Shown one piece after another: positions 1 through 2,535 of a stretch of DNA of 64,000 nucleotides. The DNA comes from a virus. Each line of letters begins with the position of its first letter. The stretch's first letter is position 1. The position numbers and the translations under genes are program-made. The stretch spans positions 1 to 64,000 of IMG/VR virus record IMGVR_UViG_3300028027_000002; one strand, 5' to 3'. Below the pieces are notes generated by a model. The model made no database searches. It was given only the letters and a program-made list of their open reading frames with translations, and had not been told where the DNA came from.

Positions 1-85
1 CTGAAATAATTTCTCCCTGCAAGGTGCGTGAGAAATACATTTTTCCTACAAGTAGGTTTTCTATTGTATAGACATTTGCTGACAT
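1..85 (-). CDS. Small protein, 3' end beyond window (partial)
   Basis: An open frame runs from an ATG at 85 off the left edge of the window, giving 28 residues that begin MSANVYTIENLLVGKMYF, with no stop. An AGAGG sequence lies 11 nt upstream. The -10 hexamer of a DNA-damage-like promoter ends 33 nt before the ATG. I do not recognise the family. Position and promoter suggest it belongs to the same class of minus-strand early genes as those at 331-2045. Confidence 0.6.
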   Translation of the reverse strand, partial: MSANVYTIENLLVGKMYFSRTLQGEIIS

Positions 86-117
86 TTGCCAACCTCTTTC
101 TTTTTGTTATTAAATCT

Positions 118-1140: not shown

Positions 1141-1173
1141 AAATCGGACATTTTCTATGTGATTTACATCATA
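1141..1173. promoter_or_regulatory. AAATCGGACATT plus near-perfect CRP-like box
   Basis: AAATCGGACATT at 1141-1152 is followed by TGTGA-TTTACA-TCATA at 1158-1173, one base short of the GlxR/CRP consensus. The same pairing of AAATCGGACATT with a TGTGA box occurs at 2143-2169. It lies in the gene-free stretch 1001-1308. Confidence 0.45.
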
Positions 1174-1188
1174 CGAACATCTGTTCGA
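1173..1188. promoter_or_regulatory. LexA (SOS) box, actinobacterial type
   Basis: ACGAAC-ATCT-GTTCGA matches 11 of 12 defined positions of the actinobacterial SOS box TCGAAC-N4-GTTCGA. It is followed at 1188-1201 by AAACGACGTCGTTT and a T run. It stands in the same intergenic region as the damage-type promoter at 978-1000. Whether it represses that operon from this distance is uncertain. Confidence 0.5.
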
Positions 1189-2098: not shown

Positions 2099-2121
2099 AG
2101 TATAGCAGGGGGGTCTGACAA
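2099..2121 (-). promoter_or_regulatory. DNA-damage-type promoter C
   Basis: The minus strand reads TTGTCAGAC, eight bases, TATACT. This is the third copy of the 23-bp element, here with a near-consensus -10 and an upstream TG. It drives the operon 2045 to 1309 with a leader of about 47 nt. Confidence 0.6.
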
Positions 2122-2142: not shown

Positions 2143-2185
2143 AAATCGGACATTGTGATGTAGCACACATGTGATGTACACCACA
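2143..2185. promoter_or_regulatory. AAATCGGACATT with two overlapping CRP-like half-sites
   Basis: AAATCGGACATT (2143-2154) runs into TGTGATGTAGCACACA (2154-2169) and TGTGATGTACACCACA (2170-2185). The second keeps the TGTGANNTANNNCACA frame with one mismatch to GlxR/CRP. It abuts the DnaA boxes. Confidence 0.45.
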
Positions 2186-2189
2186 TTAG

Positions 2190-2209
2190 TTATACACAGG
2201 TTATCCACA
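2190..2209 (+). promoter_or_regulatory. Two perfect DnaA boxes
   Basis: TTATACACA (2190-2198) and TTATCCACA (2201-2209) both fit the DnaA box TTATNCACA exactly, in the same orientation and two bases apart. They are followed by a CCCCTATATA-rich stretch (2217-2275) and by four iterons. This is the strongest sign of a replication origin in the window. Confidence 0.6.
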
Positions 2210-2280
2210 GGGGACGTCCCCTATATACCCCCCTATATAGGTACCCCTATATGTACCCCCCTATATAGGCGTATACGCCC

Positions 2281-2373
2281 AAGACTGGTCATGTGCATAT
2301 AGGCCTAAGACCAGTCATGTGCCTATGCACCTAAGATCAGTCATGTGTATATGCGCCTAAGACTGGTCATTTA
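2281..2373 (+). repeat. Four 26-bp iterons
   Basis: Units starting AAGACTGGTCATGTG, AAGACCAGTCATGTG, AAGATCAGTCATGTG and AAGACTGGTCATTTA begin at 2281, 2307, 2333 and 2359, an exact 26-bp period. The last unit is partial. Preceding bases CCTAAGA and following TATA/TATG are also conserved. Such arrays typically bind a replication initiator or partition protein. Confidence 0.7.
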
Positions 2374-2382
2374 GACGTCCCG

Positions 2383-2398
2383 TGTGATGCGAATCACA
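2383..2398. promoter_or_regulatory. CRP-type palindrome
   Basis: TGTGA-TGCGAA-TCACA is a perfect TGTGA-N6-TCACA palindrome. It lies 22 bp upstream of the -35 box of the plus-strand promoter at 2420-2448, a typical activator position. Confidence 0.5.
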
Positions 2399-2419: not shown

Positions 2420-2448
2420 TTGACTTTTGGGGGTAGATGTGTTATTAT
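2420..2448 (+). promoter_or_regulatory. SigA-type promoter for the small plus-strand genes
   Basis: TTGACT and TATTAT are separated by 17 bp. Transcription would start near 2455 and run into the genes at 2748-3661 through a leader of about 290 nt that contains the TGAGCCT repeats and another CRP-like box (AGTGA-CCTAAA-TCACA, 2534-2549). Confidence 0.6.
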
Positions 2449-2483: not shown

Positions 2484-2535
2484 TATGAGCCTAGCAAATA
2501 AGATAACGAATTGTTATATGAGCCTAGCAAATAAG
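2484..2535 (+). repeat. Direct repeat TATGAGCCTAGCAAATAAG in leader
   Basis: Two exact 19-bp copies at 2484-2502 and 2517-2535, 33 bp apart. They are in frame with each other and together form a 17-codon ORF (MSLANK...MSLANK) ending in TGA, with AAAGG just before the first ATG. Further TGAGCCT motifs occur near 2648 and 2660. The function could be a leader peptide or a protein-binding site. Confidence 0.5.

Follow-up and report, generated by a model that had tools for sequence, protein, structure and literature searches.

A putative divergent early-promoter control region with DnaA boxes and an optional 26-bp repeat array in a freshwater actinophage

The stretch at 2.2 kb of this phage genome, originally predicted to be a plasmid-type replication origin, is best explained as a divergent early-promoter control region which receives DnaA and CRP-family input and carries an optional, lineage-specific array of dyad operators, a reading to which we assign a probability of roughly 55%. 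Two outward promoters, recognized as consensus matches, are kept in relatives, the CRP-like sites are helically phased, and the module as a whole recurs. On infection, the outward-facing promoters would read the small early genes to the left and the genes to the right, with a CRP-like activator site, the tandem DnaA boxes and TCGGACAT sites placed upstream of them. A CRP-family protein and the DnaA of the host are predicted to bind there and to tune early transcription, both the binding proteins and the direction of the regulation being deduced from sequence. The 26-bp repeats, in turn, would be lineage-specific dyad operators for a candidate dimeric DNA-binding protein, inserted between GACGTC borders. 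They are probably not the obligatory origin of the phage, which is more likely to be a single-copy block at 101.33-101.56 kb.

The phage and the anatomy of the locus

The window, that is, the whole 64,000-nucleotide stretch of DNA that was analysed, comprises the first 64 kb of an IMG/VR record of 111,870 bp, the remainder of which was read in stretches. Since the two ends of the record share an exact 99-bp repeat (window 1-99 and G000:C1:111772-111870), likely an assembly overlap, the record closes to about 111.77 kb (the 111.8-kb genome). The gene set includes a DnaB-like helicase, a DnaG-like primase, a DnaE-type polymerase, a RecA/UvsX-type recombinase and a terminase, together with a WhiB protein encoded at 89750, WhiB serving as a marker of actinophages in lakes (PMC10202952; PMC10914622). 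The closest cultured matches of the polymerase belong to Streptomyces phages of the Stanwilliamsviridae (51-55% identity) and, because its relatives are encoded on at least about 600 IMG/VR stretches (the best 80 of these being 83-98% identical), the phage is a member of a common actinophage group. It is a freshwater actinobacterial phage, probably of the lytic type. One relative was placed in a Flavobacteriia bin; given the WhiB protein and a polymerase nearest to those of Streptomyces phages, this relative was judged misbinned and a Flavobacteriia host was rejected. DNA searches found no DNA-level similarity to known phages, and neither an integrase nor a partition gene was seen among the proteins covered by a non-systematic scan. 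The possibility of an extrachromosomal prophage, raised together with the origin, finds no sign in the window of a prophage or plasmid state. On the early arm, Rfam returned tRNA only. Two early-arm proteins (L005:803-1579 and L005:2462-2692, both on the minus strand) gave weak, below-cut-off matches to a luciferase-like monooxygenase and an NMN transporter domain, and in an early intergenic region, at window 1172-1187, the LexA-box-like palindrome ACGAACATCTGTTCGA adjoins GACGTC.

The region of interest lies between two outward promoters, with the leftward one at its left end and the rightward TTGACT-N17-TATTAT at its right end. Its features, with the strand where assigned, and the block further away are the following:

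2099..2121 (-), leftward early promoter (consensus match), with the extended -10 TGCTATACT (TATACT at 2099-2104) and, upstream of it, a TTGTCA-GACCCCCC element (also given as TTGTCAGACCCCCC; TTGTCA at 2116-2121)
2146..2153, TCGGACAT motif, which recurs upstream of early promoters
2154..2185, two imperfect tandem CRP-like 16-mers, TGTGATGTAGCACACA and TGTGATGTACACCACA
2190..2211 (+), tandem DnaA boxes TTATACACAGG / TTATCCACAGG at an 11-bp period, as a whole TTATACACAGGTTATCCACAGG
2213..2218, GACGTC, left border of the variable cassette
2217..2270 (+), CCCC/CCCCCC-TATATA repeats, part of the variable cassette, replaced in relatives
2281..2292 (+), repeat core 1, AAGACTGGTCAT
2307..2318 (+), repeat core 2, AAGACCAGTCAT
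2333..2344 (+), repeat core 3, AAGATCAGTCAT
2359..2370 (+), repeat core 4, AAGACTGGTCAT
2374..2379, GACGTC, right border of the variable cassette
2383..2398, clean CRP-like site TGTGATGCGAATCACA, 21 nt upstream of the rightward -35
2420..2448 (+), rightward early promoter (consensus match), TTGACT-N17-TATTAT
G000:C1:101330-101560 (L005:5330-5560), minus strand, outside the window, single-copy noncoding block

The letters bear out the elements on which the original prediction was built. The two DnaA boxes lie two bases apart, TTATACACA at 2190-2198 and TTATCCACA at 2201-2209, forming one tandem TTATNCACAGG pair; CCCCTATATA-type DNA follows them in the form of the CCCC/CCCCCC-TATATA repeats; and the four units keep an exact 26-bp period (core starts at 2281, 2307, 2333 and 2359), the array spanning 2281-2370. 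Single TTATNCACA matches are at chance level in the window (6 found against 4.3 expected). In contrast, the tandem pair and its setting exceed chance, and a chance origin of the pair was rejected. The same holds for the array, where nine of the 12 core columns are identical across the four copies, against a maximum of four in 2000 Markov-sampled sequences.

Each repeat core is an imperfect dyad, GAC-YR-GTC, and since a second, GTGCATATGCAC-like dyad (perfect in the relative L112) is centred 13 bp from the core, the array alternates two dyads. The period of 26 bp corresponds to 2.48 helical turns instead of an integral number, a comparison which the alternate dyads at 13 bp complicate. On the complement of 2217-2270 (minus strand), four runs of 4-6 G are found 6-10 nt apart (TATATAGGGGGG repeats, also in L494), which could form a G-quadruplex; the orientation of the G-runs varies among relatives. 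Beyond the rightward promoter, a leader at window 2484-2535 contains the repeat ATGAGCCTAGCAAATAAG around a palindrome and has equivalents in L207, L208 and L209. In relatives this palindrome reads CGAACAAATGTTCG or similar, resembling an SOS (LexA) box, and the leader may encode a short leader peptide.

The same locus in relatives and the position of the origin

The divergent locus of the window was aligned with those of L112, L508, L494 and L512. The alignment matches up the two promoters, the pair of DnaA boxes and the CRP-like site on the right, and shows the stretch between the GACGTC-like borders to be replaced. The leftward -10 region and TGACA are conserved in 5/5 of these sequences and the C-run in 4/5, the rightward -35 is invariant in relatives, and the DnaA pair is invariant in all five, four of which had been fetched by the box motif or the repeat. 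As for the repeat cassette, it is replaced in L508, L494 and L512 and cleanly absent from close relatives. A second, commoner subtype of the locus has each DnaA box joined to a CRP-like sequence (TGTGANNTNNNTCATGTGGATAAC), with a spacing of exactly 41 or 42 bp between two TCATGTGGATAAC boxes; a search allowing 13 gap lengths found it on 90 contigs, in 70 distinct contexts. Among the 64 distinct second-subtype loci with full flanks, 55 show a match to the rightward promoter and three contain repeats. The 26-bp repeats are therefore optional, being absent in close relatives and from nearly all loci of this subtype. Repeat-core pairs at the spacing seen here were found on 12 IMG/VR contigs; almost all of these share the divergent layout and have 3-6 units (two in L206). 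Repeats kept only as operators, an outcome which the original prediction had itself set against an origin, are largely what this comparison shows.

A gene tracking the repeats was also sought among five complete or near-complete genomes, with no good candidate. A 229-aa protein (74179-74868), with no Pfam match, is shared only with the repeat-bearing G011 among these genomes; it was not accepted as repeat-tracking, five genomes being too small a sample for such a conclusion.

At the divergent locus DnaA boxes are usual, not universal, as the divergent region of G007 (L275) is without them; part of the box sets was obtained by searching for the boxes themselves. Moreover, TTATNCACAGGTTATCC pairs are present in at least 119 IMG/VR stretches, mostly without the other elements of this phage family, so that the pair alone does not define the family. 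The boxes at the divergent locus are nevertheless genuine and conserved in a large phage family, so that it is reasonable to infer a dependence on host DnaA, and to this extent the original prediction is partly supported; its other part, a plasmid-type origin made of iterons and boxes, is weakened by the evidence that follows.

An origin of the lambda or iteron-plasmid type at 2.2 kb seems to us rather unlikely. In such an origin, a phage initiator would occupy the four dyads and DnaA the boxes, opening near 2430-2480 would be aided by flanking transcription, and the DnaB-like helicase and the primase that the phage encodes would be brought in. Several facts fit it: the tandem DnaA boxes (2190-2209) adjoin an array of dyad iterons in noncoding DNA, direct repeats to which an initiator would putatively bind; the phage encodes its own helicase, primase and polymerase; and the DnaA pair is very conserved, as an origin element would be. 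In addition, the least stable 50 bp of the locus start at 2430 (2430-2480), at the rightward promoter, which puts them about 60 bp past the right end of the array, and in cultured relatives a gene desert of 1.5 kb contains DnaA boxes. The combination of divergent promoters and a DnaA pair would likewise be in keeping with a transcription-activated origin such as that of lambda, a precedent for dimer-bound iterons with DnaA acting at nearby promoters (PMC3985674). Nevertheless, the array is missing at the same locus in close relatives, which could replicate from another origin. The stretch has 47% GC (95th percentile of the genome), its least stable internal 50 bp are at the 62nd percentile, and the stability profile reveals no AT-rich unwinding or melting element within it or between the boxes and the repeats. 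The period of about 2.5 turns is also unfavourable, as half-turn offsets between plasmid iterons abolish Rep cooperativity (PMC4980987).

Two of the checks proposed with the original prediction gave no support either. The search for a RepA-like initiator elsewhere, which covered the Rep_3 and DnaA_C families, found no match to either in the whole genome. The cumulative GC skew of the full genome does not single out 2.2 kb: it has its maximum at a convergent gene boundary (about 95 kb), and it is uninformative, as it stays flat between about 2 and 25 kb and elsewhere tracks gene orientation. Thus, the boxes and direct repeats of the predicted plasmid-type layout are present, but the reading of them as an origin is weakened by the absence of the cassette in relatives, its GC content, its period, the lack of Rep_3 and DnaA_C matches and the repetition of the module at several early promoters, and also by the existence of a more conserved and more origin-like block at 101 kb.

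This block comprises a sigma70-type promoter (TTGACA-N17-TATAAT), GGTTTGG repeats, ATTACGA...TTAAAA, three TCCAC units at a 10-bp period and an AT-rich stretch containing ATCAGTAA, followed by two or three DnaA boxes at fixed offsets of 38, 49/50 and often 83. It was found on 89 further contigs, one copy per contig, and in 5/5 genomes at one locus each. The promoter is present in 59/60, at about -154, and GGTTTGG reaches 4.4 per 300 bp in the block against 0.47 over whole loci. The DnaA boxes are missing from it in 5/91 contigs, and G011, in which the box positions were compared with the position of the block, also lacks them there. As the downstream sequences differ between contigs, the block is not tied to one gene. 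A structured RNA was considered and rejected, there being no covariation and five weak pairs. For the family, this block is the more likely origin candidate, stronger than the array at 2.2 kb.

Recurrence of the module and its meaning

The elements of the divergent locus are not confined to it. Outside the window, leftward early genes are preceded at 106.5, 109.6 and 110.5 kb by tandem or single boxes with the same neighbours, and the same module stands upstream of other early promoters both in this genome and in five genomes. Across five complete or long genomes, boxes are found at a distance of at most 60 bp from CRP-like sites more frequently than after random shifts, with p values (0.0005-0.032) which are optimistic, since related contigs are not independent. 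Early DNA from relatives, 1.26 Mb in all, was also scanned, and the resulting counts are inflated to the extent that some loci had been fetched by boxes or repeats. There, 323 distinct DnaA boxes were found against 20 for a permuted word (about 16-fold), 83% of them noncoding and 35% within 200 bp upstream of a promoter match, a range covering 16% of the sequence. CRP-like sites numbered 166 against 0 for a control dyad, and TCGGACAT gave 164 distinct matches (72% noncoding) against 20 for a control word. Of the 51 repeat cores, 36 were located in those same 200 bp upstream of a promoter match (again, 16% of the sequence). Repeat cores were also seen away from the arrays: G011, G019 and G027 each have a pair of them at about 1 kb from the main array (adjoining a CRP-like site in G011), and this genome has a single core beside GACGTC at 108.27 kb.

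The gaps between the CRP-like site and the -35 are dominated by 10, 21 and 31 nt (R=0.50, p=0.0002, for sequences that are related and not independent), some of the scanned TTGTCA matches possibly being elements beside extended -10 promoters instead of true -35 boxes. An activator bound to one helical face would require such phasing. From site to site, the preferred helical phases are 11, 22, 33 and 41-42 bp.

This phasing bears directly on a second explanation, in which the DnaA boxes and host-factor sites would be decoys, here and elsewhere in the early arm, titrating host DnaA and CRP off their host targets in a datA-like manner. The boxes do exceed expectation (TTAT[CA]CACA is found 15 times genome-wide, where base composition predicts 3.5), and several early loci carry them, yet titration needs no helical phasing, either between sites or from CRP-like sites to promoters, and as each infecting genome brings in about a dozen sites, they would titrate only once replication had taken place; we therefore regard decoys as improbable. 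An operator role of the 26-bp array, serving a phage repressor or an immunity switch of a phage that is temperate or pseudolysogenic, is very improbable, for although the cores are dyads, the array lies between divergent promoters and extra cores stand upstream of other early promoters, the array is missing in most relatives and a non-exhaustive scan of the proteins met no repressor-like or integrase gene.

It is possible, and we propose it tentatively, that this freshwater actinophage family gates divergent early transcription, and possibly replication, by host DnaA and a CRP-family protein at composite sites (two boxes 11 or 41-42 bp apart), the separate, near-universal block with its promoter, TCCAC repeats, AT-rich stretch and DnaA boxes acting as a DnaA-assisted origin. 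Such phages would then sense the replication and carbon state of the host before committing. The group has hundreds of relatives in lake metagenomes, and no described origin or early-control logic was found for it. Host-initiator input into infection is known mainly from lambda, and the constrained DnaA boxes at early promoters point to such an input here; moreover, the conserved 101-kb block offers a concrete, testable origin candidate for the group.

Comparison with known systems

The iterons of lambda are essential and are contained in the O gene, next to an AT-rich element. The array described here differs from them in that it is flanked by divergent promoters, can be dispensed with across the family, and has neither an adjacent AT-rich element nor a known initiator. 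The likeness to the lambda early region and ori-lambda (pR/pO, O iterons) resides in the dyad iterons, bound in lambda by O dimers, in the DnaA boxes near early promoters, and in the input of host DnaA into transcription that also serves replication, DnaA and promoter activity both mattering for the lambda origin (PMC3985674); for the present phage that input is a prediction from its DNA. Iteron plasmid origins (RK2, P1, F, pSC101) share with the locus the direct repeats beside DnaA boxes, but their iterons are mostly of 17-22 bp and come with an AT-rich unwinding element and a Rep protein (PMC4980987), whereas the array here has a 26-bp period, no unwinding element inside, and no Rep_3 protein found in the genome. 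With CRP-family sites at bacterial promoters, the putative sites have in common the TGTGA-N6-TCACA form and the helical phasing upstream of the -35; the difference is that they are carried by a phage and are fused to, or adjoin, DnaA boxes.

The nearest cultured polymerases belong to the Stanwilliamsviridae, whose early arm also contains a gene desert with TTATCCACA boxes. BillNye has three of them at 119,428-119,460 and one at 119,707, with ATGTCCG motifs adjoining the boxes, and Blueeyedbeauty has two with the same 255-bp spacing, within a desert of 1.5 kb. Both gene-poor stretches (NC_042105.1:119199-120559 and NC_048720.1:123070-124574) combine conserved DnaA boxes 255 bp apart with clustered palindromic repeats, and 35 Streptomyces phage records show matches to parts of the gene-desert block. 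Searched at the DNA level, this desert matched neither the window nor the 101-kb block; unlike the locus at 2.2 kb, the desert does not lie between clearly divergent early operons, and the parts of it that were examined are without CRP-like sites. These cultured Streptomyces phage relatives open an equivalent test to laboratory work.
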